Positions 3,101 to 64,000 of a DNA stretch of 64,000 bases are shown here, piece by piece. Source of the DNA: Sabellastarte sp. h YS-2021. Taxonomy: Eukaryota; Annelida; Polychaeta; Sabellida; Sabellidae. Each line of letters opens with the position of its first letter. The first letter of the stretch is position 1. The notes under the pieces were generated by a model that ran no database searches, was not told the DNA's origin, and was given only the letters and a program-made list of their open reading frames with translations. The stretch is from positions 80,690,706 through 80,754,705 of the forward strand of contig OZ024934.1 in the NCBI GenBank assembly GCA_964017235.1, given 5' to 3'. The position numbers and the translations under genes are program-made.

Positions 3101-4671
3101 CTCTCCAGAATATGTTCCAGATCTGTTTAAACCCATAGAAAAAGAGTCACAAGATCTGTTCATTACTTTTGGAGTAACCACAAACAAAGACATACAAACA
3201 AAAGGACGCACCCACAAAAATGTAACCTCATTGAGGAGAAAATGACACAAAAATACTATATACTTATATTATGTCAACATAAGGTGAGTCAGTGACTTTG
3301 TATCTTTGTTAAAAAACCTATTTATGGTTGTATTTATGTCCCATGTACACAAATCGAACATTTTATGGCTTGGCTAAAACTACCAGTTAATGAAACAAAT
3401 TAACTGAGTTTTTACTTTTCAGACCTGGTTTCGACACTAACTTGTCATTGTTTTGAGATGCGAGAGATGTAAATGTTTAAATATGGAAAGTCTCACCAGT
3501 CATAAAGCACCAACTAAGGTCCAATTTTAGGAGACTTTTTGTGGGTTGAATTAGAAAACACTGTGTACTGACATAGGGGCCTGGAACTGGTAGATTTGTA
3601 CAAGTTGAGAGAACATGCATATAAACAAAATATAACATAATACAAGACTACAAGAGGGTCAAAGATGCTCCAAAAGGCGGGTTGCGGAGGTAGCAATAAG
3701 GTTAGCGACTGCTATAATTAAATTTAGAAACAAGGAAAGAAATGTTAGGTCACCCAGTTAAGGTAAATATGTTAGACATGCTAAGAAATGTAAAACGTGT
3801 AATCTAGGTTACATAATTGTATCTATGCTATAAACGGTCAAACGAATGGACAAAATTACACCAATTTCGAAAGCAACTTAGCTATGATGGTGATCTATGT
3901 CCCTGTCAAGTTTGAATTCGATTGGACAAAGCATTTTCAAGTTAGAGTCTGGAAATGGAAATGTTGACGGACAGACAAACGGACGAAAAACAGACAAACA
4001 AACGACCAGAATTACACCAATTTCAAAAGCAACTTAGCTATGGTGGTGATCTATCTCCCTGTGAAGTATGAATTTGATTGGATAAAGTGTTTTCGAGTTA
4101 GAGTCCAGAAACAGAAATGTTGACGGACAGACAAACGGACAAACGTACACATGCAATTACACCAGTTTCAAAAGCAACTTAGCTATGATGGTGATCTATC
4201 TCCCTGTTAAGTTTGAATTTGATTGGACACAGTGTTTTCGAGTCAGAGTCCAGAAACAGAAATGTTGAGGGACAAACGGACAAAAAACGGACACACAAAC
4301 AGACGGAATTACACCAATTTTGAAAGGAACCTAGCTATGATGGTGATCCATCTCCCTGTCGAGTTTAAATTTGATTGGACAAAGCGCTTTCGACTTAGAG
4401 TCCGGAAACAAAAATGTGGACATGTAACCCGCCTAATAATTACTAATATAAAATACTTCATGAAAAATTAAATATATCTAGTATGACATATGAATTGAAG
4501 AAAACTATATAGTTATTTATTGAAACAAAACTGGTTTTTCCTGTTATATTTGATTAACTCTGTACTTTTCTTCTAATTTTCAAATACCAAAAGAAATTTT
4601 GTTAGACAGATAAACTCAAAGGAAAATCTTGAACTTACCCTTACCGCCACCTTCACATTCACTTCCTGCAT
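161..4671 (-). CDS. KIF27: KIF27/KIF7-type kinesin, N-terminal motor domain (5' part of gene, runs off left edge)
   Basis: Five coding exons on the minus strand: 4639-4671, 2059-2196, 1390-1476, 782-889 and 161-293. Each is bounded by GT/AG, and they encode 11, 46, 29, 36 and 44 residues plus one base. The first four introns are phase 0; the last exon ends in phase 1. The joined product starts [11 protein letters not shown], passes through [10 protein letters not shown] and [11 protein letters not shown] (the P-loop, split by intron 3), and reaches [15 protein letters not shown] and LREDERGNT. This matches the start of vertebrate KIF27/KIF7 residue for residue in spacing. The family are kinesin-4-like motors, relatives of fly Costal-2, acting in cilia and Hedgehog signalling (known for the family). 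Switch I (SSRSH), switch II (DLAGSE), the coiled coil and the tail lie outside the window. Intron 1 (2.4 kb) holds a TC1 repeat. KIF7 and KIF27 cannot be separated from this part alone. Confidence 0.93.
2835..3045 (-). repeat. TC6 flank fragment in kinesin intron 1
   Basis: The stretch around TACCTCGCCCGC and CAGATCTGCATGCCTTCAAC is the reverse complement of the non-tandem flank seen at 50476-50780 and 52640-52985, and matches the same-orientation copy at 54600-54910. No tandem core is attached here. Confidence 0.65.
3676..4443 (-). repeat. TC1 tandem-core element in kinesin intron 1
   Basis: Four imperfect units of about 145-156 bp. The phrase AATTACACCA recurs near 3854, 4010, 4155 and 4307. 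The block is closed by inverted ends GGCGGGTT (3676) and AACCCGCC (4436-4443). On the minus strand each unit reads CTAACTCGAAAACACTTTG, a form of the box shared by the other TC families, and ends ACCATAGCTAAG, as in TC6. Each unit also carries GACGGACAGACAAACGGAC. No coding capacity is apparent. Confidence 0.75.
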
Positions 4672-4699
4672 TTTACCAATGTCCGTCACCCAAATTTAT
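4672..4699 (-). other. KIF27: 5' UTR segment of the kinesin start exon
   Basis: Reading the minus strand, TTTTGCAG ends at 4700 and 28 untranslated bases precede the ATG at 4671-4669. The acceptor means at least one further non-coding exon lies to the right. I could not identify it or a promoter among the repeats there. Confidence 0.6.
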
Positions 4700-5034
4700 C
4701 TGCAAAATAAAAGTTAGACTTCAGTAAAAATTTGAAAGTGAACAAAAATGAAATTTGGCAATGTAAACACAGTACATAAATATGAGCATTTATTATTATC
4801 ATACTTTTAGTTTATAATTTTTATGTCGGTTATAACATTAGGGTGAATTAGTCGAGATATCTGTCTGCCTAACAAAGAAGATTGTTCAAAGATACATTGT
4901 ACATTTTTCTCAATGGGAGGGCACTAATAATGGGGACTTATTTAAGAAGCTAGAAGAAGTCTTTAATACCATGCAATAAAACATTGCCAACTTGATTGAT
5001 TCATTTACTATTTACTCTCTCATAAAGTAGATAT

Positions 5035-5420
5035 TTCTCAGCTATGCAATGAGCTACAGGTCTGCAATTTTATGTTATAGCTGATCCAAAAGTAGGTGAA
5101 CAACATATTTAAACAAAATACCCCAAATACAATAGTTTTCAAGTTACAAACTACGCCAAATGCAATAGTTTTCAAGTTTCAAGAGATTTTACTCATTATG
5201 GAAAGTACTGAAAAGTCAGAAAGTAGCTATTACACACTTAGCTTTGGGATAGACTCCAAAGCTAATCACCATGTTGTAGCTACGGAAATGTAGCTGAACA
5301 ATATATTTTAAAAAATGCTCCAAATGTGATACTTTTCAAGTTCTAAGTAATTTACTGTATGAATTCATGGATTTTAATGCAATAAAAATAGCATCAGAGA
5401 TGCCCGTACCCCACAGCCTG
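5035..5420 (-). repeat. TC6 type-A units, minus orientation
   Basis: About 2.5 units. The phrases AATAGTTTTCAAGTTACAA and GGTGAACAACATATTT are reverse complements of the type-A unit of the 50.8-52.1 kb array (TAACTTGAAAACTATTGCAT, ATGTTGTTCACCTA). They are diverged and bounded by unrecognised AT-rich DNA. Confidence 0.7.
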
Positions 5421-5789
5421 GGGAAATAGTTTTCAACAACCTTGAGATATAGAAGTAGTGAAACAGTACACAGATTGGGATAATTTTAGAGTGTCCAAAT
5501 AATGTTTAAGTAGAGTAAATAACATCTAAGAGAAAGAAACCGCATGTAAAGATTAAGTATTAAAACAGGACAATTCAGTTAACTAGAAATTATGAAGCTT
5601 TAAGACTTCTCCCATCTTGATATTCATTTGTATGGTCAAATTATGGTTTGAATGTTTTGAATATTACCTATATATTTCGATGTGGCAATACATGCTTTTA
5701 TGTGGAGTTGGGGCAAAACTTGTGGCTCACTTGATGCCATACCATCTGTTACAATGGGAAGTTGCAAAAGTAAAACAGTTAATGAATTC

Positions 5790-6690
5790 TAATATGACTT
5801 TAACAGTGCTTAATCTACATCAAAAGACACCCAAAGGTGCAACAACCAAGATTCAAGTAAAAAGATATGAGAGGTATAAGAGAGATAAAATAGTATCACA
5901 TATCCCTGTAGAGAGATATGCAAGATCAAAGGTCAAATCCAGGTCACACCATGAGGTTGCACACATATAACCCCCGACCAATGTCCCTACCAAATATCAA
6001 CTTCCTACACCTTGTGGTTTCCGAAATATAGCCCAGACAAGGCATTATAGGTTAAGGTCACTACCGCAAGGTCAAAGGTCAAATCCAGGTCACACCATGA
6101 TATCTACACACCCTAGCCAATGTCCCTATCCAGTATCAACTTCCAACACCTTATGGTTTCCAAGATATCCCTCGGACAAGATTTTATAGGTCAAACGTCA
6201 AATCAAGGTCACGCCATGACGTTGCACACCTACACCCACCGTCTAACCAATGTCCCTACCAAGTATCAACTTCCTACACCTTATAGTTGCGAGATATAGC
6301 CCGGACAAGATTTTATAACTCAAGATCACTACAGCAAGGTCAAAGGTCAAATCAAGGTCACGTCATGACGTTGCACACCTACAACCCCTAACCAATGCCC
6401 CTACCAAGTACCAACTTCCCACACCGTACAGTTTCAGAGATATAGCCCGGACAAGATTTTATAGGTCAAGGTCACTATGGCAAGGTCAAAGGTCAAATCA
6501 AGGTCACACCATGACGCTGCACACCTACACTCCCTAACCAATATCCCTACCATAGTATTAACTTCCTACACCTTACAGTTTCCGAGATACAGGCCGGACA
6601 GACTTCTTCCTGCTGCCCGTCCATCCAGAAACCATGGGTAAAAACAATACCCCAACAGCCCTTAAGGGCTGTGGAGTAAAAATGGACAGA
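5790..6690 (-). repeat. TC2 tandem-core element
   Basis: Minus-oriented copy. Its 5' tip is the perfect palindrome AGCCCTTAAGGGCT at 6657-6670, followed by a conserved flank (CCATGGTTTCTGGATGG on the minus strand) and five units of about 130-146 bp. Read on the plus strand each unit contains AGGTCAAAGGTCA-like sites, a CCCTACCAAGTATCAACTTCC phrase or variant, and a GAGATATAGCCCGGACAAG phrase. It is homologous to 53006-54110. Confidence 0.85.
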
Positions 6691-6773
6691 GTGACAAGTC
6701 AGCTGACTTAAAAGTTACTAAATTGGGTTTAGATACTTATAAACCAGTAAAACCACTGATATAAATGCATGCA

Positions 6774-7560
6774 CATAGAATAGAATAGGAACTTTTATAT
6801 AGCGCAAAATTGACGCATCATCCTCTAATGCGCTTGAAAGTCGAGGGACATGCCCAGGCCAAAATCCAAATTTAGCGCCCGCAAGGGGAGATATACTAAG
6901 GTGGAGGGTATGTAAGTCTAAACAAGTATGTTTTTAACTGGCTTCGAAACCCTATTATTGTGTTCTGTGATCTTCTGTTCCTGGGACGAACAGAAGAAAG
7001 AGAAAGCCGATTTCCACAAGTAAGGCTACTGGATTTGATTAAGGATGATAAGTATGTGGGTTGGGAGGATTTAATAGTCTTGAATGTAATAAGATTGTAT
7101 TTGAACAGGATATGGTATGAAATGGAGAGCCAATGTAGTTTTTGCAGATAGGAAGCAACATGGCTTGTTTTAATTAAGTCTGAAAACAATTCTACAAAGG
7201 GCATTTTGAATATTTTGGAGTTTAGCCACATTATATTTGTTCACAGCATAAAGTAGGAAATTGCAGTAGTCAATTCAACTACTGATCATTGAGTTTGCCA
7301 GCAGGGCTGCAGTCTCCAAACTGAGAAATTTACTAATATGTCTAAAATCTTTGAGATGATAGAAGCAGCCTAGCAGGCATGACAAACCTTGGTTAAATGA
7401 CTGGCAAAGGTGTTCCCAGAATCAAAAGTAACACCTACATTCTTAACTTTGTTGGTAGGGGAAAAAGAATTTCCAAGAATCTGGATGGGAAATTTTTGCA
7501 TAAGGGACTCTCTGGCACATAGAGAATATGATATATTACCTGCTTGACACAACTTTCACA
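6774..7560 (-). mobile_element. CR1/L2-like LINE, 3' fragment
   Basis: Minus-strand frames carry the end of a LINE reverse-transcriptase ORF. They include NSFSPTNKVKNVGVTFDSG, then LHWLSISYHILFKYNLITFK, then FRSQLKTYLFRL before the stop. These correspond to the LGV.FD, LHWLP..RI.FK and FKS.LKTYLF blocks at the C-terminus of CR1/L2-type proteins. The element ends in a short repeat tail (ATTCT units, reverse of ATAGAATAGAATAGG at 6775-6790). The 5' part is missing and the frame is interrupted, so this is a dead, 5'-truncated copy of a different family from the LINE at 34-37.7 kb. Confidence 0.8.
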
Positions 7561-7669
7561 ACAGGACATTTTAAAATTTTCTGAGATCTTCAAGAAAACA
7601 TTGAAAACGGGAAATTTTCATTTAATTTTACTCACTTTTGTATGTATGTTGAGGGAAAAATGACAAAAT

Positions 7670-7806
7670 AGTTGTGGGAATACTTGGGTGTACACATTTG
7701 TGGGGTGTCAGTTTTTGGAGCAAAATCTCTAGTTTTATGTGGGGTAGTGCCACAGCTCTACACACAAGTAAGTAGAGCTGAGGTAACCACGTCTAAACAC
7801 AAATCA
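7670..7806 (+). repeat. Arm of a foldback element (relative of 39223-40170)
   Basis: The phrases CAAAATCTCTAGTTTTATGT and GCTCTACACACAAGTAAG match one arm of the foldback element at 39.2-40.2 kb (39948-40025). Only one arm is recognisable here. Confidence 0.6.
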
Positions 7807-7969
7807 ATTGTAAATTGTACAGACATACAACAATATTCAACACAAGAAATTTGCTAGTGTTCACATGTTTATATGCTTTTCAAGGGAACTCCAGTACAAT
7901 TTACATTGGTATCCGACACGACTGTCCTGTGTGTGATTCATCGTCCATGGGTAGAATTATAAAACTAGC

Positions 7970-8710
7970 ATTTTTGTGTTTTGCAATTTTTGCGTAAAAT
8001 TCAAAATGGCCGCCATTTTTGGTGAGTCAAAATTTTTTTGAAAATTGGCATGGCTACTCTGCAGAGATATCCTGTGGGTCAAAAATTTCGTCGAAAACGC
8101 TCTATCTAGCACGATTTTCGAGATATAAGGATTTTTATGTTTTGCATTTTTTGTGAAAAATTCGAAAATTCAAAATGGCCGCTATTTTTGGCGAGACAAA
8201 AATTTTTTCAAAATCGGGATAGCTACTCTGCAGAGATACCCTGCGGGTCAAAAATTTTGTCGAAATCGCTCTATCTAGCACGGTTTTCGAGTTATAAGCA
8301 TTTTTGTGTTTTCCTTATTTGGAAAATTCATAATGATTAATCAATCATTAATTACTCGGCCATTTCTTAACCAATCAATGCCAAAATCTAATGATTTCCA
8401 GATTTTAATAGAATGAATGTATTTTCCAAGTTTCAGGTGAATTGATAAAATCCCTTTCAAGTTATCATCCGGACAAGCTTCCCCATCGAAAAAAGACATT
8501 TTTGGTCATGTGACCTCTCTGATTGGTTGAAATGTCACTGCAGCATATTCAAAACAATTCCCCAAGGCTACTGCATAAACCTGCCAAATTTGAAAAGAAA
8601 CTGGCTAACGGTTACAGAGTTATAAGGAAAACAAAATGTGGAGCCGGCGGAGCCGCCGGAGCCTGAAGGTCTCCCATACCCAAACAAGCGTCCCTTGCGG
8701 GATGCTTAAA
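7970..8710 (-). repeat. TC3 tandem-core element, short copy
   Basis: Minus-oriented. The tip CAAGCGTCCCTTGCGGGATG (8687-8706) pairs as GCGTCCC/GGGATGC, and the GGAGCCGGCGGAGCC flank follows. A conserved non-tandem region (8290-8640) and about two tandem units come next. The units contain TCGTCGAAA, CTCTATCTAGCACG, TTTTCGAGATATAAG and AAAATGGCCGC. It matches 57314-58620 in the opposite orientation. Confidence 0.85.
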
Positions 8711-8715
8711 AAAAT

Positions 8716-10731: not shown

Positions 10732-11220
10732 TTGAAGTTACATGAGGTACTGAACTTGTGCTTAGCGGTAGATGAACTAATGTGGTAGATACATTGTATA
10801 GGTTCTAGATGCTAAGGGTGATACACATGCAGTAGCTAGGTTTCCTGATGTGATTTTCTTCAGGTGGTTCTCCAGTATGTTTTTCTATAACTGATATTTC
10901 TGCATATGATTTTCCTGTTTTGATTATTATTGTTTTATCTGATATCAAGTAACTATTTAGTGTGAATATTAAACTGTTATTAAACATGTAAACATACGAA
11001 CTTTAAGTGTGCCAATTCAGCCCCAACTTTGTTGGTAAAACTTGTATATTTGTAAATAAATATTGTTTATTTGTTAACCCATGTTTTCATTAGTAATTTC
11101 CTGACTTGTATAAGGCCAACCTGTAGCACGCTACAGTATATACCACCCGTGAGACCGTTCTTGACCAATTTACAGGCTGTGAAGTCATGTTTACGGCCGG
11201 TAAGAACGCTGCATTACTGT
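10419..11220. other. Unannotated AT-rich interval
   Basis: Apart from two GGGTAAAACCTG motifs and an AATAAA-bearing AT-rich stretch near 11055, I see no gene, repeat family or conserved coding frame here. Confidence 0.4.
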
Positions 11221-17240: not shown

Positions 17241-17254
17241 TTATTACACCTAGA

Positions 17255-41441: not shown

Positions 41442-43760
41442 GTATCCCAGGGCGAAAGTCGGGGATACTTAGGATTCAGTACGGTCATGCCGCAGCCGCA
41501 GAGATTTCCTTTCGGATGCGATAACTTAAAAAAAATAATTTTGTGAGACCTTTAAATTTGGTATATGGGTATATACGGGCAATGCCACGAACGCAATTGT
41601 TTTGTGACCTTGACCTTCAATTTCAAGGTCACTGGTGGCCTCTTAATGGTCAGACTTTGGCCATTTTTTCACATTTTGGCCCAGTTCTCATGTACAGAAA
41701 GTTAGATCATCCTATGGGTGGTATATATAATACATATATATGTCCTCTGTAAGCATGCCGAAATTTGACCTTGAAGCTCTTCATTGAAGGTCATCCACAG
41801 ACTGCCAAAGTACCTCACCGAGGCCATTTTTGGAGATATTATCAGTTTTCACACTTAATGCTGATTATATTGCATGGAAACTATTTAAAATGGCTTTGGA
41901 GGTTGAGTATATGATGGTTTACCAGCATCCAGTTTGTTGACCCGCCACCGCAGTGTGTAGAGAGATTTCACCATTACTGCCCTAACGAAAAAATATTATA
42001 GCTACCCTTCTCAAATTTACAGGATATATTCATAACCATAAAATATTGCCTGGTAATATTTTTGGCCTCATTTTGAAAAACAAGATGGCTGCTACGAGTG
42101 TTTTTTGACTTTCAGCATCACTTTTGTTGGCCGTCTAGAGCAAAGGGTATTTATTATAGGTAGAGATATAAAAATTCTCAGGATATGTTCCCCATTACAA
42201 AATCTTGACTGGGAATATTTTTGGCCTCATTTTGAAAAAACAAGACTGAGAATCTTTTGGTGTGGTCAGATTTGACCTTGGACCCCTCATTCAAGGTCAA
42301 ATAAGGATAACCAAACCTAAAAGTGCTTATGACTCGCTTATTATTGATCCTAGAGGTTTGGGATGGTAAACCAACCTATAGGAAATCATGGGATGGGAAT
42401 CTTCTGATGTGGTCAGATTTGACCTTGGACCCTCCTTCAAGGTCAAACGAGGATAGCCAAACTTAAAAGTGCTTGTAACTTGCTTATTATTGGTCCTAGA
42501 GGTATGGGATGGTAAACCAACCTGTAGGAGATTACAGGCTGGGAATGTTTTGGTGTGGTCAAGTTTTTTTTTTTTTGTATGATCAATAGAACCACCCCAG
42601 GGCTGAACTTACCAGTACCCCAATACCTGCCTGAACAGCCCCTAGATGGTCAAGTCAAAAATAAAAGACAAAGTGGGTTTAATTTTCTATTTGATACTAA
42701 ATATTTTGACACATGCACAATTATGACAGTTTATATTTAAAATGATGAAGATGAATTAAGGATTAGAACTACCTTCAAATAACAACCAAAAGTGAAAGAA
42801 AGGTCAAGATGTTTGAAGGCCAAGGTCACTCAATTCGCTGCGACCTTGGAAAAACATGAAGTTCAAACTAACAGTAATGAGGGCAGAGCCCAGTAACCTA
42901 TGGACGAAGCCAAGGTTTTAAAAGAAGGTGGTTCGAACCCAAAACCACTTAGTGATATTACTTGACTTCATTACATTGAGGAATGTTAAGTTACATAAAA
43001 GTAGACCAATTCAATAAAGTTAAATTTAGGATATACCATGGTCTGTGTGTGATATTTATGATTTTACATGGAAGTGTATGCAGCTGAGGCTAGAAATAAA
43101 ACCATTACAAAATCTTTACTGGGAATATTTTTGGCCTCATTTTGAAAAACAAGATGGCCACCATGGTCATGTCAGTAGTGAAAAGTGCTTGTATCTCTCT
43201 TGTTATTGGTCCTAGAGGTTTGGTATGTGAAGCCAACCTATAGGAAATCATGGGCTGGCAATCTTCTGATGTGGTTGGATTTAACCTTGGACCCTCCTTC
43301 AAGGTCAAACGATGAGACCCAAACTTAAAAGTGCTTATAACTCGCTTATTATTGGTCCTAGAGGTATGGAATGGTAAACCAACCTGTAGGATATCATGGG
43401 CTGGGAATCTTTTGGTGTGGTCAGATTTGACCTTGGACCCCTCCTTCAAGGTCAAATCAAGATAGCCAAACCTTAAAGTGCTTATAACTCGCTTATTATT
43501 GGTCCTAGATGTTTGGGATGGTAAACCAACCTATGGAAAATCATGGGATGGGAATCATTTGGTTTGGTCAGATTTGACCTTGGACCCCTCCTTCAAGGTC
43601 AAACGAGGATAGCCAAACTTAAAAGTGCTTATAACTCGATTATTATTGATCCTAAAGGTTTGGGATGTGAAATCAACTTGTAGGGTATCATGGGCTGGGA
43701 ATCTTCTGATGTGGTCAGATTTGACCTTGAACCCCTTCTTTAAGGTCAAGTGATGGTTCA
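41442..43760 (+). repeat. TC5 tandem-core element
   Basis: The 5' tip GTATCCC...GGGATAC (41442-41468) forms a 7-bp stem with a 13-nt loop. A conserved flank (CAGTACGGTCATGCCGCAGC) and several related modules follow. A ~147-bp tandem core comes next, with unit starts in phase at 42261, 42408, 42554 and again 43270, 43416, 43563, 43710. The unit carries CTTATAACTCGCTTATTATT, TGGTCCTAGAGGTTTGGGAT and GATTTGACCTTGGACCCCT. It is interrupted at about 42575-43080. Confidence 0.85.
42575..43080. other. Unrelated insert within the TC5 array
   Basis: After a T15 run (42565-42579) the TC5 unit stops and ~500 bp of unmatched sequence follows, before a partial TC5 module resumes near 43110. No gene, TIR or target duplication was read. 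Confidence 0.4.
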
Positions 43761-47731: not shown

Positions 47732-47792
47732 TAATTTCAAAAGTTGCAAGGGGATCCATTTTATTGAACAATTCTATTTGTATGCATTTATT
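47732..47792 (+). other. MED24: MED24 3' UTR before the TC6 insertion
   Basis: 61 bp from the stop codon to the TC6 tip, with no AATAAA. The transcript must read into the repeat or use a variant signal. Confidence 0.5.
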
Positions 47793-48730
47793 ATCTCCCG
47801 CCGGCCGGGCGGGAGATTATAAAACGCATTCCGTGCGTGTGTCCGTGTGTTATTGAGTGTGTGTCACTCTTTTATAAAGGGCTGTACATCACACTGGTTG
47901 TTTCTGCTTGGCCTTTTCAATGTTTTTTATGACCTTATTGCTTATGTCCTTTCATTTGATGCTGTTATTTCACACCTAGGACCATAGCTAAGTGAGTAAT
48001 AGCAATGGTGGCTACTTTGAGTAAAGTGCTCATCACTCCAAAACGACTGCATTTAGAGTGTTTCTGTAAAATACGTTGTTCAGCAACTTTCTCCATGCCT
48101 ACAAGATGGTACCATCTTTAGGGTTCTATCTTCATAGCTAAGTGAGTAATAGCTATTTTCTGTTATTAACAATGAGCAAAATGAGTAAATTGATTTTGTC
48201 TTTGTAACTGTTACTTACAATATTGGCCTGAAATATGTTGTTCAACAACTCCTTCATGTACTATATCATGGTGAGGTGTCCAAGGTGTAGCACCATAGCT
48301 AACTGAGTAATAGCTATACTAAGTTTAACATTTGACCATTGAGCAAGTCACTTATAACTCAAAAACTATTGAATATAGAGGATTTTTGTCGAATATGTTG
48401 TTCACCTATCTTTTGGATATACTGTATTGTGAATTTTCACAGCTGTAACTCCATAGCTAACTGAGTAATAGCTACTTTGATGATAACCATAATGAGTAAA
48501 TGGCTTATATCTTCAAAAGTATTGCAGCTACACAATTTTGTTCCAATATGTTGTTCAGCTACTATCTCCACAGCTACAACATGGTCACTAGTTTGGAAGT
48601 GTATCTCCATAGCTAAGTGAGTAATAGGTACTTTGTCAATTTTTAATGATAACCATATAGGAGTTTTGTCAAATATGTTGTTCACCTACTTTTTGATGTA
48701 GTGCGGCGGGAGATCATACCACGGCAGTGG
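47793..48730 (+). repeat. TC6 element, type-A units, complete ends
   Basis: The tip is a 25-nt hairpin (stem ATCTCCCGCC/GGCGGGAGAT, loop GGCCG; 47793-47817). A conserved leader (AACGCATTCCGTGCGTGTG, GGGCTGTACATCACACTGG) and about five type-A units (ATAGCTAAGTGAGTAATAGC; ACTCAAAAACTATTG) follow. The right end is GGCGGGAGAT (48705-48714) with ACCACGGCAGTGGT (48717-48730). The right GGCGGGAGAT is also the inverted form of the tip. It lies in the MED24 3' region. Confidence 0.85.
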
Positions 48731-50819: not shown

Positions 50820-52385
50820 TTAAAATTCATGAAATCATGCACTAAATCACTTATAACTTGAAAGGTGTTGCATTTAGAGCATATTGTTAAAATATGTTAT
50901 TCAGCTACTTTTTTCATAGCTACAACATGGTGAGTAACTTGGGTGTCGGTCTCAATAGCTAAGTGAGTAATAGCTACTTTTGGGCTTTTCAGTAACTTCC
51001 ATCATGAGTAAAATCACTTGTAACTTGAAAACTATTGCATTTAGAGAATTTCATATAAATATGTTATTCAGCTACTTTTGGGTCAGCTATAACAATTTCA
51101 GACCTGTAGCTCATGGCATAGCTGAGTAATAGCTACTTTTAGGTTATCACTGTTGAGTAAATCACTTATAACTTGAAAACTATTGCATTTAGGGTATTTT
51201 GTTTCCTATGTTATTGACCTATTTTGGGGTCAGCTATAACATAGTAAAATTTCAGACCTGTAGCTCATGGCATAGCTGAGTAATAGCTACTTTTAGGTTA
51301 TCACTGTTGAGTAAATCACTTATAACTTGAAAACTATTGCGTTTACAGAAATTTGTGTAAATATGTTATTCAGCTACTTTTGGGTCCGCAATAACATAGT
51401 GAAATTACAGACCTGTAGCTCATGGCACAACTGAGCAATAGCTATTTTCAGGTACTGTATGTTGAGTAAATCAGTTGTAACTTGAAAAATATTGCATTTG
51501 GAGTATTTTGTTAAAATATGTTGTTCACCTACTTTTGGGTCAGCGATAACATAGTGAAATTACAGACCTATTGCTCATGGCATAGCTGAGCAATAGCTAT
51601 TTTCAGGTTCTCACTATTGAGTAAATCAGTTGTAACTTGAAAACTATTGCATTTACAGTATTTTGCTTAAATATGATGTTCACCTACTTTTGGGTCAGCT
51701 ATAACATAGTAAAATTTCAGACCTATAGCTCATGGCATAGCTGAGTAATAGCTACTTTGAGGTTATCAGTGTTGAGTATATCACTTATAACTTGAAAACT
51801 ATTGCATTTAGAGTATTTTGTTTCATATGTTATTCACCTATTTTGGGGTCAGCTATAACATAGTAAAATTTCAGACCTGTAGCTCATGGCATAGCTGAGT
51901 AATAGCTACTTTGAGGTTATCACTGTTGAGTACATCACTTATAACTTGAAAACTATTGCATTTACAGAAATTTGTGTAAATACGTTATTCAGCTACTTTT
52001 GGGTCAGCTATAACATAGTGAAATTACAGACCTGTAGCTCACGGCATAGCTGAGTAATAGCTAGTTTTAGGTTATCACTGTTGAGTAAATCACTTATAAC
52101 TTGAAAACTATTGCATTTACAGAAATTTGTGTAAATCATGGGCTGGGAATCTTTTGGTGTGGTAAGATTTGACCTTTAGACCCCTCCTTCAAGGTCAAAT
52201 AAGGACAGCCAAACTTAAAAGTGCTTATAACTTGCTTATTATTGGTCCTAGAGGTTTGGGATGGTAAACCAACCTATAGGAAATCATGGGCTGGGAATGT
52301 TTTTGTGTGGTTGGATTTGACCTTGGACCCCTTCTTCAAGGTGGAACAAGGATATTGCATTTGCAGTATTTCTTTAAATATGTTT
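50820..52385 (+). repeat. TC6 type-A tandem array, ~154-155-bp period
   Basis: About nine units. TTGAGTAAATCACTTATAAC or variants recur at 51153, 51307, 51462 and 51617 and onward. Each unit reads CATAGCTGAGTAATAGCTAC, then ACTTGAAAACTATTGCATTT, then TTCACCTACTTTTGGGTC, then ATTTCAGACCTGTAGCTC. A block of TC5 sequence (52131-52350) interrupts the last unit. Confidence 0.9.
52131..52350 (+). repeat. TC5 insert inside the TC6-A array
   Basis: From ATCATGGGCTGGGAATCTTT to CTTCTTCAAGG the sequence is 1.5 units of the TC5 core (GTGCTTATAACTTGCTTATT, GGTCCTAGAGGTTTGGGATG). It then returns to TC6-A with GATATTGCATTTGCAGTATT. The junctions carry no TC5 tip or flank. Confidence 0.85.
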
Positions 52386-52985: not shown

Positions 52986-53005
52986 TTAAATAGTGTTTAC
53001 ACTAT

Positions 53006-54110
53006 AGCCCTTAAGGGCTGTCGGGGTATTGTTTTCACCCATGTTGTCCGGATGGGCGGCGGGAAAAGTTTGTCCAGGCTGTATCTCAGAAACCATAAGG
53101 CGTAGGAAGTTGATACTTAGTAGGGACATTGTTGGGTGTGCAACATCATGTTGTAACCTTATTTGACCTTGCCGTAGTGACCTGGAGTTTGAAAATCTTG
53201 TCCGGGCTATATTTCATAGATTGTAAGGTGTAGGAGGTTGATACTTGGCAGGGACATTTGTTAGGGATTGTAGGTGTGCAGCGTCATGATGTGACCTTGA
53301 CATTTGACCTTGCTGTAGTGACCTTGACCTATAAAATCTTGTCCGGGCTATATCTCGGAAATCGTAAGGTGTAAGAAGTTGATACTTAGTAGGGACATCG
53401 GTTGGGAGTTGTAGGTGTACAATGTCATGGTGTGACCTTGACTTGACCTTTAACCTTACTTTAGTGACCTTGACCTATAAAATCTTGTCCAGGCTATATC
53501 TCAGAGGCTGTAAGGTGTAGGAAGTTAATACTTGGTAAGGACATTGTTTAGGGGAGTAGCTGTGCAACATCAAGGTGTGACCTTGATTTGACTTTTGACC
53601 TTGTCATAGTGACATTGAGTTTGAAAATCTTTTGTTGGCTGTATCTCAGAAACTGTAAGATGTCGGAAATTGATACTTAGTGGGAACATTGGTTTGAGGT
53701 TGTAGGTGTGCAACGTCATGGTGTGACCTTGATTTGACCTTGCTGTAGTGACGTTGACCTTTAAAATTTTGTGTGGGCTCTCGAAAACCATAAGGTGTAG
53801 CAAGTTGATACTTAGTAGGGACATTGGTTTGGGGTTGTAGGTGTGCAACATAATGGTATGGTCTTGATTTGACCTCGACATATTGACCATGAGTTTTAAA
53901 ATCTTGTCCTGGCTTTTCATTTCTGTAAGGTGCAGAAGGTTGACACTTTGGTTATGTATGTTTGGACATTGGTTAGGAGTTGTAGGTGTGCAACATCATG
54001 GTGTGACCTTGATTTGACCTTGCCGTAGTGATCTTGACCTTTGAAATTTTGTCCGGGCTATATCTCGGAAACCATAAGGTGTAGTAAGTTGATGCTTAGT
54101 AAGGTCATTT
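53006..54110 (+). repeat. TC2 tandem-core element, plus copy
   Basis: The tip AGCCCTTAAGGGCT (53006-53019) is followed by CGGGGTATTGTTTTCACCCA and seven to eight units of ~100-150 bp. The units have GCTATATCTCGGAAACCATA, AGGTGTAGGAAGTTGATACT, TTAGTAGGGACATTGGTT and GTGTGACCTTGATTTGACCT. It is homologous to 5790-6690. It is inserted between a TC6 flank (+) and TC6-A units (-). Confidence 0.87.
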
Positions 54111-55453: not shown

Positions 55454-55454
55454 T

Positions 55455-57310
55455 TATGCTGCGTGGCATATAGGGATTGCTTCGTCATCCAGTTTTGTGG
55501 CGTCGGCATCGTTGTCTGTCGTAGTCACACTTTGTATTCCGGACAGTATCTCAAAAATGGCTTGTCAGATTTAATTTAGATTTGGCATGTGGATTAAACT
55601 GGTCCTGAAGGTGTGCTGTATAGTTTGGTGACCTTAAACTCCCATTAGTAGGATACTTAAACTCAATTTAAGTTTTTTCGTTTCTGGACAGTATCTCAAG
55701 AATGACTTGATGGATTCAATTCAAATTTGGCATGTCGTTGTAACTAGTTTGGAAGGTGTGCCCTATTTTAAGGTGACCTTAAACTCCCACATATAAAAAA
55801 CTTATGTCCAGTTTATGGTTTTTCTTTCTCCATGGAGTATACTGAAAATAACTCCAGAAATTTCATTCAACTTTTGCATGTATATGTAACTGGTCATAGG
55901 TGCCATACAATAAGGTGACCTTAAACTACCAGTAATAACAGAATTATATTCGCTTTAAGTTTGGTAATTTTTGAACAGTATTTCAAATTTTGTGCAATTC
56001 TAGGCATATTTTTGTTGTGGATGTAACAAACCTTGAACAGAACCTTCAGAAAAAGATTACCTTAAACTTGCTACAATATACAGCAGTGCAAACAAACTTT
56101 GAGTTTAAGGTTGGGACAATATTTTTGGTGTTTGGATATTTTATATGCTAATTAGGACTTTTCACATTGATATTCATCATGTACATATATCTACAACAAA
56201 AATGGTCTCTTTTGTAAGGTTATATAGTAAATTACTGATATTTAATATACTTATGAGTTTAAGGTTGCATTAGTTTGTGTCACTAGCAACTATGATGGAA
56301 AACATACATGGACAGTGACGTCGTCACACTTACTTTGCAGACAGTATCTCAAAAATGGCTTGATGAATTAAATTCCAATTTGGCATGTTGATGTAACTGT
56401 TCCTCAAGGTGTACCCTATTTAAGGTGACCTTAAACTCACAGTAGTAACATATTGAGTTGAAGGTTTTCCGTTTCCAGACAGTATCTCAAAAACAGGTTG
56501 ATGAATTCAATTCAAATTTGGCATGTAGCTGTAACTGGTTTTCAAGGTGTACCCTATTTTAAGGTGACCTTAAACTCATGTATTAAAAAGTTATGTTGAG
56601 TTTACATTATTTTTCTATAGAGTATACTGGAAATAACTTGAGAAATTTCATTCAAATTTTGCATGTGTATGTAACTGGCCACAGGTAAGTGCCATAGAAT
56701 AAGGTGACCTTAAATTCCCAATAATAACAGAATTATATTCACTTTAAGTTCAGCAATTTTTCAACAGTATTTTAAACACTGCAATTCTCAGCATCTTTCA
56801 AGTTGTGGATGTAACAAACCATGAACAAAACCTACAGGAAAAGATTCCCTTAAACTCTCTCACAGCTGCAAACTAACTTTGAGTTTAAGGTTGGGACAAT
56901 ATTTTTGGTGTTTAAAATTAAGACTTTATTCTTTGATATTCATCATGTACATCTGTCTACACCAAAAAAGTTTCTTTTGTAAGGTTATAGTAAATTCCTG
57001 ATATTTCATAAACTTATGAGATTAAGGTTGCATTACTTTTGTGTCACTAGCAGCTATGTTGGAGGACAAGTATGGCCAGTGTCGTTGTCACACTTCATGT
57101 CCAGACAGTATCTCAATAATGTCATGATGGATGAAATTCCAATTTGGCATGTGGATGTAACTGGTACTCAAGGTGTGCCCTGTTTTAAGGTAACCTTAAA
57201 CTCCCACTAGTAACATACTTCTATTGATTGTGGATGTAACTGGTATTCAAGGTGTGTATTATTTTAAGGTGACCTTAAACTCCTATGTATAAAAGAATTA
57301 TGTTGAGTTT
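55455..57310 (+). repeat. TC4 tandem-core element
   Basis: The weak tip TATGC-TGCGTG-GCATA (55455-55470) is followed by a leader (CTTCGTCATCCAGTTTTGTG) and about a dozen units of ~145 bp. The units read GGACAGTATCTCAAAAATGG, ATTCAAATTTGGCATGTGGA, TGTAACTGGT and TTAAGGTGACCTTAAACTCC. Two higher-order groups repeat (56300 restarts near the leader-type GTCGTCACACTT). Confidence 0.85.
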
Positions 57311-57313
57311 ATT

Positions 57314-58620
57314 AAGCGTCCCGCAAGGGACGCTTGTTTGTGTATGGGAGAGCTTCCGGCTCCGCCGGCTCCGCATTTTGTTTTCCTTATAACTCTGTAA
57401 CCGTTAGGCGGATTCTTTTCAAATTTGGCAGGTTTAGGCAGTAGCCTTGGGGAATTTTTTTGAATATGCTGCAGTGACATTTCAACCAATCAGAGAGGTC
57501 ACATGACCAAAAATGTCTTTTTTCGATGGGGAAGCTTGTCCGGATGATAACTTGAAAGGAATTTTATCAATTCACCTGAAACTTGGCAAATACATTCATT
57601 CTATTAAAATCTGGAAATCATTAGATTTTGGCATTGATTGGTCAAGAAATGGGTGAGTAATTAATGATTAATTAATCATTACGAATTTTCCAAATAAGGA
57701 AAACACAAAAATGCTTATATCTCGAAAACCGTGCTAGATAGAGCGATTTCGACGAAATTTTTGACCCACAGGGTATCTCTGCGGAGTAGTTTTCCCAATT
57801 TTCAAAAAATTTTTATCTCGCCCAAAATGGCGGCCATTTTGAATTTTCGAAATTTTCGCAAAAATTGCAAAACACAAAAATGCTTATATCTCAAAAACCG
57901 TGCTAGATAGAGCAATTTCGACAAAATTTTTGACTCGGAGGATATCTCTGCGGAGTACTTTTCCCAATTTTGAAAAAAATTTTGTCTCGCCAAAAATGGC
58001 GGCCATTTTGAATTTTCGAATTTTTTGCAAAAATTGCAAAACATAAAAATGCTTATATCTCGAAAACCCTGCTAGATAGAGCGATTTCGACGAAATTTTT
58101 GACCCACAGGGTATATCTGCAGAGTAGCCATGCCAATTTTCAAAAAAATTTTATCTCGCCAAAAATGGCGGCCATTTTGAATTTTCGAATTTTTCGCAAA
58201 AATTGCAAAACATAAAAATGCTTATATCTCAAAAACCCTGCTAGATAGAGCGATTTCGACGAAATTTTTGACCCGCAGGGTATCTCTTCAAAGTAGCCAT
58301 GCCAATTTTCAAACAAAAAATTTCTCGCAAAAAATGGCGGCCATTTTGAATTTTCGAATTTTTCGCAAAATTGCAAAGCACAAAAATGCTTATATCTCGA
58401 AAACCGTGCTAGATAGAGCGATTTCGACGAAATTTTTGACCCACTGGGTATCTCTGCAGAGTAGCCATGCCAATTTTCAATGGCGGCCATTTTGAATTTT
58501 CGAATTTTTGCGCAAAAATTGCAAAACACAAAAATGCGAATATTTCGAAAACCGTGCTACATAGAGCGATTTCGACGAAATTTTTGATCTTCAGGGTATC
58601 TCTGCAGAGCAGCTATCCCA
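57314..58620 (+). repeat. TC3 tandem-core element, 169-bp period
   Basis: The tip is a 9-bp stem AAGCGTCCC/GGGACGCTT with GCAA loop (57314-57335). GGCTCCGCCGGCTCCGC and a conserved ~400-bp leader with AATGATTAATTAATCATTAC follow. The ~169-bp units then read GCTTATATCTCGAAAACCGT, GCTAGATAGAGCGATTTCGA and AAAATGGCGGCCATTTT at 57824, 57993, 58162 and 58331. The array is broken by a TC6-B block and resumes at 60971. Confidence 0.9.
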
Positions 58621-60970
58621 AAGAGCTTTCACTTGGTGAAGTTTCAGACCCATAGCTAATTGCTCACCTACTCAAAAAGAGTAAATGCGAATTACCTCTA
58701 AAAGTATTGCAGATGGCCAATTTTTCTCAAATAACTCATTCACCTACTTTTGGAAGAGCTTTCACATGGTGAAGTTTCAGACCCATAGCCAATTACTCAC
58801 CTACTCAAAATGAGTAAATGCGAATTATCTCTAAAAGTATTGCAGATAGCCAATTTTTCTCAAATAACTCATTCACCTACTTTTGGGAGAACTTTCACAT
58901 GGTGAAGTTTCAGACCCATAGCTAATTATTTACCTACTCAAAATGAGTAAATGCTAATTATCTGTAAAAGTATTGCGGATACCCAATTTCTATCAAATAA
59001 CTCATTCATCTACTTGTGGGAGAGCTTTCACATGGTGAAGTTTCAGACCCATAGCTAATTACTCACCTACTCAAAATGAGTAAATGCGAATTATTTCTAA
59101 AAGTATTGCAGATAGCCAATTTTTCTCAAATAACTCATTCACCTACTTTTGGGAGAGCTTTCACTTGGTGAAGTTATCAGACCGATAGCTGATTACTCAC
59201 CTACTCAAAATGAGTAAATGCGAATTATCTCTAAAAGTATTGCAGATAGCCAATTTTTGTCAAATTAATCATTCACCTACTTTTGGGAGAGCTTTCACTC
59301 GGTGAAGTTTCAGACCCATAGCTAATTACTCACCTCCTCAAAATGAGTAAATGCGAATTATCTCTAAAAGTATTGCATATAGCCAATTTTTCTCAAATAA
59401 CTCATTCACCTACTTTTGGGAGAGCTTTCACTTGGTGAAGTTTCAGACCGATAGCTGATTACTCACCTACTCAAAATGAGTAAATGCGAATTATCTCTAA
59501 AAGTATTGCAGATAGCCAATTTTTGTCAAATTAATCATTCACCTACTTTTGGGAGAGCTTTCACTTGGTGAAGTTTCAGACCCATAGCTAATTACTCGTC
59601 TACTCAAAATGAGTAAATGCGAATTATCTCTAAAAGTATTGCAGATAGCCAATTTTTCTCAAATAACTCATTCACCTACTTTTGGGAGAGCTTTCACTTG
59701 GTGAAGTTTCAGACCCATAGCTAATTACTCACCTACTCAAAATGAGTAAATGCGAATTATCTCTAAAAGTATTGCAGATAGCCAATTTTTCTCAAATAAC
59801 TCATTCACCTACTTTTGGGAGAGCTTTCACTTGGTGAAGTTTCAGACCCATAGCTGATTACTCACCTACTCAAAATGAGTAAATGCGAATTATCTCTAAA
59901 AGTATTGCAGATAGCCAATTTTTCTCAAATAAATCATTCACCTACTTTTGGGAGAGCTTTCACTTGGTGAAGTTTCAGACCCATAGCTAATTACTCACCT
60001 ACTCAAAATGAGTAAATGCGAATTATCTCTAAAAGTATTGCAGATAGCCAATTTTTCTCAAATAACTCATTCACCTACTTTTGGGAGAGCTTTCACTCTG
60101 TGAAGTTTCAGACCCATAGCTAATTACTCACCTACTCAAAATGAGTAAATGCGAATTATCTCTAAAAGTATTGCAGATAGCCAATTTTTCTCAAATAACT
60201 CATTCACCTACTTTTGGGAGAGCTTTCACTTGGTGAAGTTTCAGACCCATAGCTAATTACTCACCTACTCAAAATGAGTAAATGCGAATTATCTCTAACC
60301 AATTTTTCTCAAATAACTCATTCACCTACTTTTGGGAGAGCTTTCACTTGGTGAAGTTTCAGACCCATAGCTAATTACTCACCTACTCAAAATGAGTAAA
60401 TGCGAATTATCTCTAAAAGTATTGCAGATAGCCAATTTTTCTCAAATAACTCATTCACCTACTTTTGGCAGAGCTTTCACTTGGTGAAGTTTCAGACCCA
60501 TAGCTAATTACTCACCTACTGAAAATGAGTAAATGCGAATTATCTCTAAAAGTATTGCAGATAGCCAATTTTTCTCGAATAACTCATTCACCTACTTTTG
60601 GCAGAGCTTTCACTTGGTGAAGTTTCAGACCCATAGCTAATTACTCACCTACTCAAAATGAGTAAATGCGAATTATCTCTAAAAGTATTGCAGATAGCCA
60701 ATTTTTCTCAAATAACTCATTCACCTACTTTTGGGAGAGCTTTCACTTGGTGAAGTTTCAGACCCATAGATAATTATTCACCTACTCAAAATGAGTAAAT
60801 GTGAATTATCTCTTAATAGTATTGCAGATAGCCAATTTTTCTGAAATAACTCATTCACCTACTTTTGGAAGACCTTTCACACACGAAAATGAAAAATTGT
60901 GAATATCTCGGAAAAGCTATTTCTTCTGCTTTAATGCTCGGCGGGAGATACACACCACGGCAGTGGTCTT
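58621..60970 (+). repeat. TC6 type-B tandem array, 133-bp period, with TC6 right end
   Basis: About 17 units at a 133-bp period (for example GCTTTCAC at 59690, 59823 and 59956). Units read GTGAAGTTTCAGACCCATAG, CTAATTACTCACCTACTCAA, AATGAGTAAATGCGAATTAT, CTCTAAAAGTATTGCAGATA and ATTCACCTACTTTTGGGAGA. Units 3-16 are nearly identical, implying recent homogenisation; one lacks AAAAGTATTGCAGATAG near 60298. It ends in GGCGGGAGAT (60940) and ACCACGGCAGTGGT, as in the 47.8-kb element. Confidence 0.93.
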
Positions 60971-61224
60971 GACAAAAATTTTTGTGTCCCCAAAAATGGT
61001 GGCCATTTTGAATTTTCAAAGTTTTTGCAAAACACAAAAATGCTTATATCTCGAAAACCATGCTATATGGAGTGAACTCAACAAAATTTTGGACCTGCTG
61101 GGTATCTCTGCAGAGTAGCCATGCCAATTTTCAAAATATTTTTGTCTCGCCAAATATAGCGGACATTTTTAATTTTTTTATTTTTTGCAAAACACAAAAA
61201 TGCTTAGATCTTGAAAACCGTGCT
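60971..61224 (+). repeat. TC3 units resuming after the TC6-B block
   Basis: CAAAAATTTTTGTGTCCCCA, AAAATGGTGGCCATTTTG and GCTTATATCTCGAAAACCAT are TC3 unit sequence, continuing the array left at 58620. Confidence 0.85.
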
Positions 61225-61385
61225 AGATAGAGCAGACTGCGCTGACTTTGGTTGCCACAACAGTATAAGGCTAGAAACGAAGCATTTTCTTAATACTTTA
61301 GCACTCACCTTTATATCCTTTTTGGGACGCTTTGTTTTTGCTATGCAAAAACATTGTCTTTTTTTTTTTGCGAGCGATCCTCTAG
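61225..61385. other. Unmatched ~160-bp stretch between TC3 and TC4
   Basis: It includes a T-rich run (61361-61371) and GTGAGT-like sequence on the minus strand. It does not match any TC unit, and no recognisable protein was found in either strand. Confidence 0.35.
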
Positions 61386-62085
61386 TTTTTTTTACTTTTC
61401 CGTAGAGTATAATGAAGATAACTGGCCATAGATAACTGTAACTGGCCATAGATAAGTGCCACACATTAAGGTGACCTTAAACTCCCAGTAATAACACATT
61501 GTGAGTGTTGTCGTCACACTTCCTTTCCAGACAGTATCTCAAAAATGGCATGATGGATTAAATTCATATTTGGCATATGAATGTAACTCGTACTCAAAGT
61601 GTGCCCTGTTTTAAGGTGATATAAAACTCCCAGTAGTAACATACTTTTATTGCTTTTAAATTTTTCCGTTTCCAGACAGTATCTCAAAAGTAGGTTGATG
61701 GATTCAATTCAAATTTAGCATGTGGTTGTAACTGGTATTCAATGTGTGTCCTATTTTAAGGTGACCATAAACTCCCATGGATAAAAGAATTATGTTGAGT
61801 TTAAGTTTTTTTACTTCAGAAATTTTATTCAAATTTTGCATGTATATGTAACTGACCATAGATAAGTACCACACATTAAGATGACCTTAAACTCCCAGTA
61901 ATAGCACATTGGTAGTGTCGTTGTCACACTTCATTCCAGGCGGTATCTCAAAAATGAAATGATGGATTAAATTCAAATTTGGCATGTGGATGTAACTGGT
62001 ATTCAAGGTGTGTATTATTTTAAGGTGACCTTAAATGCCTATGTATAAAAAAATTATGTAGAGTTTAATTTTTTTACTTTTAGAG
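61386..62085 (+). repeat. TC4 units, second copy
   Basis: Five units with CCAGACAGTATCTCAAAAAT, TTTGGCATATGAATGTAACT and TTAAGGTGACCTTAAACTCC. No TC4 tip; the start is mid-unit. Confidence 0.85.
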
Positions 62086-62319
62086 CCCTCTAGGTCACAA
62101 ACTATGAGGCGGATCTGGCTAAAATTTTACCTGAGAACACATTAATATATTCTTGGTAAATGTGCCGAAAATCAAGACTTAGTTTAGGAGAAAATTGTGT
62201 TTGAGGCCCATAAAGACCCCACTTAGGGATTTTTTCCTACATTTTTCACATATTTTTTCCAATAATTTGGAAATGGTAATTCTGATGACTCTCAAACTGC
62301 ACTAGGTATAACTTTTATT
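62086..62319. other. Unclassified spacer with one box-like phrase
   Basis: CTAGGTCACAAACTATGAGG with GGATCTGGCTAAAATTTTAC resembles a single diverged TC box. It is not tandem. Confidence 0.35.
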
Positions 62320-62490
62320 ATCTCCCGCCGGCCGGGCGGGAGATTATAAAACGCATTCCGTGCGTGTGTTCGTGTGTTATTGAGTGTGTGTCACACTTTT
62401 ATAAAGGGCTGTACATCACACTGGTTGTTTCTCCTTGGCCTTTTCAATGTTTTTTATGACCTTATTGCTTATGTCCTTTCATTTGATGCT
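62320..62490 (+). repeat. TC6 5' end, cut off by a second TC6 copy
   Basis: The same tip and leader as 47793-47970 (ATCTCCCGCCGGCC..., GGGCTGTACATCACACTGG), ending at GATGCTGTTATT where a new tip begins. Confidence 0.9.
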
Positions 62491-64000
62491 GTTATTATCT
62501 CCCACCGGCCGGCCGGCCGGGAGATTATACAGCGCATTCCGTGTGCGTGTGTTCGTGTGTTATTGAGTGTGTGTCACGCTTTTATAAAGGGCTGTACATC
62601 ACACTGGTTGTTTCTCCTTGGCCTTTTCAATGTTTTTTATGACCTTGTTGCTTGTGTCCTTTCATTTGATGCTGTTATTTCACACCTAGGACCATAGCTA
62701 AGTGAGTAATAGCAATGGTGGCTACTTTGAGTAAAGTGCTCATAACTCCAAAACGACTGCATTTAGAGTGTTTCTGTAAAATACGTTGTTCAGCTACTTT
62801 CTCCATGCCTACAAGATGGTACCATTTTTAGGGGGTTCTATCTTCATAGCTAAGTGAGTAATAGCTATTTTCTGTTATTAACAATGAGCAAAATTAGTAA
62901 ATTGATTTTGTCTTTGTAACTGTTACTTACAATATTGGCCTGAAATATGTTGTTCAATAACTCCTTCATGTACTATATCGTGGTGAGGTGTCCAAGGTGT
63001 AGCACCATAGCTAACTGAGTAATAGCTATACTAAGTTTAACATTTGACCATTGAGCAAGTCACTTATAACTCAAAAACTATTGAATATAGAGGATTTTTG
63101 TCGAATATGTTGTTCACCTATCTTTTGGATATACTGTATTGTGAATTTCACAGCTGTAACTCCATAGCTAACTGAGTAATAGCTACTTTGATGATAACCA
63201 TAATGAGTAAATGGCTTATATCTTCAAAAGTATTGCAGCTACACAATTTTGTTCCAATATGTTGTTCAGCTACTATCTCCACAGCTACAACATGGTCACT
63301 AGTTTGGAAGTGTATCTCCATAGCTAAGTGAGTAATAGCTATGTCAATTTTTAATGATAACCATAGTGAGTAAATGCCTTATATCTTCAAAAGTATTGCA
63401 GCTACACAATTTCTCTCCAATAAGTTGTTCATCTACTTTTTTGTGAACTGTAACATATTTAAGTTTTACAACTGTTGCTCAATGTACAAGTGAGTAATGG
63501 CTACTTTATTGCTACTTTTGGTGAAAATGTGAAAAATGACAAATATCTCGCAAACCGTAATAGCTACTTTGTCAATTTTTAATGATAACCATAATGAGTA
63601 AATGCCTTATATCTTCAAAAGTATTGCAGCTACACAATTTCTCTCAAATAAGTTGTTCATCTACTTTTTAAGTCATTCATCTACTTTTGGGAGAGCTTTC
63701 ATATGGTGAAGTTTCAGACTCATAGCTAATTACTCACCTACTGAAAATGAGTAAATGCGAATTATCTCTAAAAGTATTGCAGATAGCCAATTTTTCTCAA
63801 ATAACTCATTCACCTACTTTTGGGAGAGCTTTCACTTGGTGAAGTTTCAGACCCATAGCTAATTACTCACCTACTGAAAATGAGTAAATGCGAATTATCG
63901 CTAAAAGTATTGCAGATAGCCAATTTTTCTCAAATAACTCATTCACCTACTTTTGGGAGAGCTTTCACTTGGTGAAGTTTCAGACCCATAGCTAATTACT
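62491..64000 (+). repeat. TC6 element with type-A then type-B units, runs off right edge
   Basis: The second tip ATCTCCCACCGGCCGGCCGG (62497) and leader are followed by type-A units nearly identical to 47.95-48.7 kb (62680-63660). Type-B units (GTGAAGTTTCAGAC, ACTCACCTACTGAAAATGAG) then run from about 63670 to the window end. It shows that A and B arrays belong to one element. Confidence 0.9.

Follow-up and report, generated by a model that had tools for sequence, protein, structure and literature searches.

A box with a rigid three-base spacer in the tandem cores of candidate Helentron-like elements of Sabellastarte sp. and its possible origin in an old repeat module

Tandem arrays of the repeat families named TC1 to TC6 lie in a 64,000-nucleotide stretch of contig OZ024934.1 from Sabellastarte sp. 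h YS-2021 (C8:80690706-80754705, hereafter the window), part of a 1.786-Gb assembly in 647 contigs. A preliminary description had proposed that one box, TAwCTCnAAAAC in its letters, recurs once per unit in these otherwise unrelated families, and that either all units descend from one ancient unit or a shared constraint holds the box in place. The sharing of the box is real for the set as a whole and goes far beyond chance. Our preferred explanation, with a probability of roughly 0.58, is that an old module of about 40 bp, of which the box is the part shared most widely, occurs once per unit in the tandem cores of several non-autonomous rolling-circle elements of Helentron-like type.

The sequence sampled consisted of the window, 20 random 10-kb stretches, loci obtained from pattern and Helitron searches (L numbers) and two 10-kb stretches flanking a Helitron gene; flank clustering and later sample tests used 331 kb in total, with duplicates left out. 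Genome-wide pattern counts were compared with the reversed pattern as a control. Arrays were detected with Tandem Repeats Finder and with a direct box scan, the list from which leaves out units with more than two mismatches (some of TC2 and TC6-B). Boxes were found at about unit spacing in TC1, TC2, TC3, TC4, TC6-A and TC6-B, at the places first described for these families. When seven unit consensuses were given to a motif finder without the box itself, the box was picked at width 12 with 17.15 bits, a value reached by none of 100 shuffled sets (14.45 +/- 0.50, maximum 16.32). With TC5 omitted the value was 18.81 bits, compared with 15.24 +/- 0.61 (maximum 17.08) for the shuffled sets. The likeness between families exceeded that of AT-rich random sequence, which is the comparison on which the preliminary description had staked its claim. 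These consensuses were chosen for bearing the box, a choice that favours the test, while the genome counts are free of this bias.

The commonest form of the box is the split motif TAWCTC-N3-AACYRT (TAWCTCNNNAACYRT), which has 360,745 matches in the genome versus 2,396 for the reversed control; TAWCTCGAAAACNNT has 64,900 versus 454. The box exists, but its prevailing letters are not quite those first given. When spacers of 0-9 were permitted the count rose to 383,997 (control, 25,645), the nine spacers other than 3 jointly contributing 23,252 matches, which is about the control level. The motif, its abundance and its 3-bp spacer are thus direct observations; the spacer is rigid, and other lengths occur at chance. 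The 80 TC3 copies read TATCTC, mostly GAA or CTT, and AAC, with outer bases at 0.96-1.00 and a centre at about 0.5, and it is from these fixed outer bases and this variable centre that the split pattern was derived. As counted by eye, the consensuses of TC2, both TC3 forms, the single unit T3L and TC6-C fit the pattern exactly, those of TC6-A and TC6-B have one mismatch, those of TC1, L021, TC5 and N158 two, and that of TC4 three. The 331-kb sample contained 98 strict sites with room for flanks (control, 0), which fell into six flank clusters of 68, 21, 5, 2, 1 and 1; the genome counts therefore represent copies of a limited number of lineages and not independent events. One site per unit of about 146 bp would put the units at close to 53 Mb, which is 3% of the assembly. 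In word-enrichment scans of the random sample the box words were among many enriched words and were not top-ranked.

Single units gave a more uneven picture. The best match to the box of the preliminary description, TAWCTCRAAAAC, was compared on both strands with 200 dinucleotide-shuffled units, using the three best-scoring arrays of each cluster, among which TC6-A and the TC3 of the window did not appear singly. TC1 matched at 12/12 (P 0.000), as did L021:5872-6198, a family not in the window (P 0.000), and TC2 matched at 11/12 (P 0.000-0.005). Two of three TC4 arrays were significant (P 0.010 and 0.005; the third, 0.095), and TC6-B was borderline at 10/12 (P 0.060-0.115). The TC3 consensuses from L029 and L022 reached 9/12 (P 0.71-0.73), those from L029 having CTT and not GAA in the box centre. 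TC5 reached only 8/12, at another place in the unit (P 0.940-0.955); its box has 7/12 of the letters of TAWCTCRAAAAC. A significant box was absent in 14 of 21 tandem clusters. Taken family by family, the earlier proposal stood for TC1, TC2 and two TC4 arrays but failed for TC5 and the tested TC3 consensuses, and was weak for TC6-B.

A second box, AAATTTGG, accompanies the first in part of the families. The pattern TAWCTCNAAAACN{5,35}AAATTTGG has 3,279 genome matches versus 1 for the control, and in viral contigs it had 0 matches, its reversed control having 2. In 88 of the 100 matches listed, the second box stands exactly 31 bases from the start of the first, and in the other 12 at 26, 27, 34, 37 or 38; most of these 88 come from a single family, which the window lacks. 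AAATTTGGCA-like letters were observed in the same 31-bp register in TC1, TC2, TC4, T3L and L021, which we call group I. The AAATTTnG-like stretch that the preliminary description placed 10-20 bp beyond the box was consequently retained for group I, but not for group II. In this second group TC5, N158, TC6-A and TC6-C have a TATTG..TAGAG stretch in common, and TC3, its further member, has TAGAG and further letters in common with TC6-C. A further family, TAACTCAAAAACTATAACACCAATCGAGCTCAAATTTGG (e.g., C1:736854), not in the window, has copies that are often about 187 bp apart.

Similarity downstream was scored over the 36 bp after the box, without gaps and in the box register, with 5,000 base shuffles for 45 pairs. 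Within group I the scores were 24 for TC1-TC4, 20 for TC1-T3L and 24 for TC4-T3L (P 0.0000), 19 for TC1-TC2 (P 0.0008) and 18 for TC2-T3L (P 0.0020). TC3-TC6-C scored 20 (P 0.0000), and in the box register TC5-N158 shared 21/38 (P 0.0000) and N158-TC6A 21/38 (P 0.0027). TC3 showed no downstream likeness to TC5 or N158 (P 0.52 and 0.59). Nine of the 45 pairs had P < 0.005, three of them inside TC6. This likeness supports descent of the module within the groups.

The arrays, units and element ends of the window are the following.

3832..4421, minus strand: TC1 array, unit about 154 bp, boxes at 3944, 4100, 4245 and 4397
5929..6682, minus strand: TC2 array of element Z, 146-bp unit, left end near 6682
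7967..8334, minus strand: minus-strand copy of the TC3 array, 169 bp, leader unit box at 8622
42246..43753 (42246-42561 and 43181-43753), plus strand: TC5 arrays, 147 bp, TATTG..TAGAG downstream in common with TC6
47968..48703, plus strand: degenerate TC6-C units with the box, boxes at 48033 and 48355
50843..52140, plus strand: TC6-A array, 155 bp, box TAACTTGAAAAC
52133-52354, plus strand: TC5-like sequence adjoining and following the TC6-A array
52996..54109, plus strand: TC2 array of element Z, left palindrome AGCCCTTAAGGGCT
55531..57311, plus strand: TC4 units of 138-145 bp, to the left of element X, which interrupts the TC4 region
57312..57336, plus strand: left end of X, palindrome TTAAGCGTCCCGCAAGGGACGCTTG, formed by the 5' subterminal inverted repeat (subTIR) and its inverse
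57390..57430, plus strand: single leader unit T3L in X, TAACTCTGTAACCGT, with AAATTTGG at +31
57679..58621, plus strand: TC3 array in X, box TATCTCGAAAAC and variants
58622..60880, plus strand: TC6-B array in X, 133 bp, about 17 copies, box TATCTCTAAAAG
61047..61218, plus strand: two degenerate TC3-like boxes in X, right of the TC6-B array, from the direct scan
61324..61385, plus strand: right end of X, subTIR GGGACGCTT, hairpin GTTTTTGC-TAT-GCAAAAAC, end CTAG before TT
61437..62082, plus strand: TC4 units, right part; unit 62025-62110 is the empty site for X
62728..63503, plus strand: second copy of the TC6-C units
63669..64000, plus strand: second copy of the TC6-B array, ending at the window edge

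Element X (about 57313-61385) contains T3L, the TC3 and TC6-B arrays and the two degenerate TC3-like boxes, and its main boxes are on the plus strand; several module-bearing units are seen directly in this one element. Its ends, which are HINE-like (HINE, Helentron-associated interspersed element, a non-autonomous Helentron type), are equally a matter of observation. The 5' subTIR AAGCGTCCC is followed by the inverse GGGACGCTT at four of five left ends inspected (window 57312, the minus copy near 8622, L007 and L020, with small variants). The palindrome is followed in the left flank by a short imperfect GGCTCC/GGCTCCGCC repeat, which corresponds to the microsatellite of HINEs, and the TC3 and TC6-B arrays correspond to the tandem repeats between the end modules. 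At the 3' end, GGGACGCTT and then GTTTTTGC-TAT-GCAAAAAC precede CTAG in the window, L005, L006, L020 (with one repeat base changed) and L037. X was inserted inside a TC4 unit: its flanks, ..GAGTTTAT and TTTTTTTTACTTTT, compared with the uninterrupted ..GAGTTTAATTTTTTTACTTTT, show no target duplication, a comparison of one insertion made by eye with unit 62025-62110 as the reference, in which one base differs at the joint. HINEs insert at TT without target-site duplication. Judged by its sequence, X has the HINE layout.

As described in the relevant passages on Cg_HINE of Crassostrea gigas (PMC7492417), that element has the same 5' subTIR with its inverse, left short repeat, 3' subTIR and 3' palindrome, and its tandem core units are mostly 140-180 bp, compared with 133-169 bp here. 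Unlike Cg_HINE as given there, X has two different arrays and a leader unit; the two are likened by layout and not by sequence. Element Z, which carries TC2, has a different left palindrome from X (AGCCCTTAAGGGCT, decayed in L031). For the elements of TC1, TC2, TC4 and TC5/TC6-A together, the end structures seen were this palindrome of Z and a right hairpin of TC5/TC6-A.

The families are less independent than first described. TC3 and TC6-B adjoin each other not only in the window but also in L001, L007 and L020. TC5 comes after TC6-A on the same strand in L022 as in the window, and in L027 with a gap of 0.1-0.2 kb between them. TC6-A, TC6-B and TC6-C are one family. Several of the "otherwise unrelated" families are in fact arrays of one element. 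The left end of X recurs in L007 and L020, and its right end in L005, L006, L020 and L037.

Some other features of these arrays were recorded. In TC6-B (58622-60880) the box is part of an imperfect palindrome with the letters that follow it, TATCTCTAAAAGTATTGCAGATA, and many TC6-B units also match the box on the minus strand with two mismatches (TATCTGCAATAC). The stretches 47776-48657 and 62481-63365, about 0.9 kb each and both with TC6-C units, are 96.6% alike. TC2 units (6188-6605 and 53129-54109) contain AGGTCAAAGGTCA-like direct repeats (TGACCTTTGACCT), which we take to resemble nuclear-receptor DR1 sites, and TC5 units also have GACCTTG stretches. A box-free 139-bp tandem array of about 70 copies nearly fills one random 10-kb stretch (L028:1-9859).

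The genome also contains autonomous candidates. Helitron_like_N has 24 genome matches, several with long open frames. The Rep genes of L012, L014 and L017 are 98.9-99.2% identical to that of L015 over 1.4 kb; these places are nearly identical, and a Helitron has therefore probably moved recently in this genome. The protein upstream of Rep in these four loci contains a 126-bp (42-residue) coding tandem repeat; this array beside Rep has no box. Beside the L015 Helitron (L039/L040), TC1, TC4 and TC5-like arrays lie kilobases away, and arrays are dense everywhere, so these may or may not belong to the Helitron element.

On our explanation, the module would have come with an ancestral core repeat, and rolling-circle transposition would have copied the elements bearing it. 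Array expansion and the swapping of core units would then have put the module into elements whose ends differ, the remainder of each unit diverging meanwhile. In group I the box is followed by 16 more bases and then by the AAATTTGG-like second box. Variation in the box is part CpG decay (CTCG to CTTG or CTCA) and part old central variants (GAA, CTT, CCA and TGT), and selection on active elements may account for part of the retention. Positions 5-6 of the TC2 box read CA at 0.46, CG at 0.40 and TG at 0.09. These and other CpG columns are often CA or TG, as expected for methylated-CpG decay.

Several observations weigh against this explanation. The groups have no significant common register past the box (columns 12-49, 0.295 vs. 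0.277, P 0.29; columns 12-29, P 0.086), and their common origin therefore rests on the box; their best likeness lies at a shift of 6 (0.356, a value without a significance figure), which would fit a small insertion. L021 is weakly linked to group I, with downstream P values of 0.14, 0.074, 0.024 and 0.018. With the box masked in 28 whole-unit pairs, the box register was favoured for TC1-TC2 and TC2-TC4 (no null score reaches theirs), followed by TC2-TC5 (0.015), TC5-TC6B (0.016), TC6A-TC6B (0.033), TC3-TC5 (0.037) and TC1-TC4 (0.055), but the remaining pairs, at 0.099 or above, showed no preference for it. Whole-unit homology across all families was not supported, since most masked pairs align no better in the box register than in others; of the single ancient unit first proposed, descent of the module within groups is supported and descent of whole units is not. 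The left palindrome is absent in L001, the fifth left end inspected. In L034, TC5-like and TC6-like arrays are on opposite strands, 0.7 kb apart, unlike at the other places. The autonomous partner that would mobilise X, an element with a Helentron Rep-helicase and matching ends, is a predicted one. Finally, the bases at positions 0, 1 and 4 of the box (T0, A1 and T4, counting from 0) look slower than neutral, which descent alone does not predict.

This last point leads to a rival that is possible, though clearly less probable: the box could be a candidate working site for a transposition protein or a host DNA-binding protein, selected in active rolling-circle elements, with array units as repeated binding sites. 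TAWCTC-N3-AACYRT might then be a split recognition site kept by selection across many rolling-circle families, and the cores might be arrays that multiply a site bound in transposition or by a host factor, rather than passive filler, a tentative idea of the same standing. The rigid 3-bp spacer and the variable centre speak for it, although the pattern itself in part presupposes a free centre. Genome-wide, substitutions at positions 0, 1 and 4 come close to the control level, unlike those at 3 and above all at 5: one-position changes gave 9,656 matches (control, 6,556) at position 0, 12,274 (14,574) at 1, 4,372 (965) at 2 for C or G, and 8,318 (10,351) at 4, versus 28,026 (15,714) at 3 and 183,470 (12,003) at 5, with 360,745 exact matches. 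However, the reversed pattern is an improper background here and gives no calibrated expectation for such neighbours, many of which, among the matches listed, look like true mutated copies. A calibrator search gave 122,929 matches with at most one mismatch (control, 48); the matches listed start with the exact ones, and it yields no mutation ratio. In the sample, with copies from up to eight families, the mutation rate of T0, A1 and T4 was 0.21-0.40 of the unit mean (P 0.0004-0.026); this is not a blind test, as these bases were chosen from the genome counts and low values at 0, 1, 4 and 9 had already been seen in the sample. Mutation is generally lower at T and A columns. Compared with same-base columns at three clustering thresholds, T0, A1 and T4 mutate at 0.33, 0.34 and 0.56 (P 0.059, 0.008 and 0.045), but the whole box at 0.80, 0.68 and 1.08 (P 0.22, 0.019 and 0.73), so the shared constraint first suggested is hinted at for these bases and is not consistent over the box. 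The second box (27-38) mutates at 0.58-0.71 (P 0.013-0.065). The box did not stand out as the best-conserved part of the unit; it is mid-ranked within families (for example, 93 of 158 windows higher in TC3, 86 of 135 in TC2b). The variability profiles are alike across families (P 0.0007), but masking the CpG columns weakens the likeness to 0.05-0.08, and it is seen just as well in the 15 columns upstream of the box (P 0.009; CpG-masked, 0.021). At the one locus read on both sides of a Helitron, moreover, the box arrays are kilobases off. T0, A1 and T4 rarely change and, with modest statistics, hint at a constraint that is possible and unproved.

It is doubtful that the sharing of the module reflects exchange of cores, with module-bearing units transferred from one family to another by recombination, or by template switching in the course of rolling-circle replication, rather than inherited by vertical descent. 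The adjoining of TC3 with TC6-B and of TC6-A with TC5 at several places agrees with exchange, as does the group I leader unit of X beside its group II arrays; but the groups have diverged so far in their unit sequences that any transfer would be old, and no chimeric junction was traced within a unit. A structured transcript (e.g., a hammerhead) or an RNA polymerase III promoter holding the box is very improbable: nothing beyond the size of the repeat suggests it, while Rfam covariance models, including hammerhead, had 0 matches in the window at gathering scores, ARAGORN found no tRNA, and a 12-row module alignment had no consensus pairs. Chance likeness among AT-rich repeats is hardly credible. 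TC5, TC6-B and the tested TC3 consensuses fail singly to beat their shuffles, but for the set as a whole chance is refuted by the motif finder and the genome counts. Descent of an old module in the cores of rolling-circle elements remains the explanation that we prefer.

Comparable monomers are known from bivalves. In its passages on these satellites, PMC5139131 presents BIV160/Cg170 as a large family whose diverged monomers have two well-conserved motifs in common, with some satellite arrays being parts of Helitron-superfamily elements; the BIV160/Cg170/HindIII satellites and pearl elements given there resemble the present units in their monomers of about 160 bp, two motifs kept and arrays partly within Helitron-superfamily elements. 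C. gigas cluster CL4 is likewise described as having two conserved segments in common with CL1, CL2, CL10 and CL13, the rest being dissimilar (PMC7492417), and 75.61% of the Pacific oyster satellite DNA set is given as Helitron-related repeats (PMC8268682). BIV160 was compared by its primer letters only: bivF CTTATATAGGGAAAA resembled the TC3 box CTTATATCTCGAAAA with P 0.06 among 33 comparisons, and bivR resembled TC3 with P 0.03, yet on a strand unfit for the primer pair. There was no close BIV160 copy in the sampled sequence. The present box can be placed as an instance of the bivalve two-motif monomer kind, its letter identity with BIV160 being unproven. Among the papers listed for the box strings in published text, no title or abstract opening was on repeats; figures and supplements lay outside that search, so the box is not thereby unpublished.

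The passages on bivalve satellites in this literature describe no function for such tandem cores. With the split motif as a handle, cores could be traced even between families that can no longer be aligned by their ends. Its fixed spacer, its more than 360,000 copies and its rarely changing outer positions make the function of the cores directly testable by binding and transposition assays.

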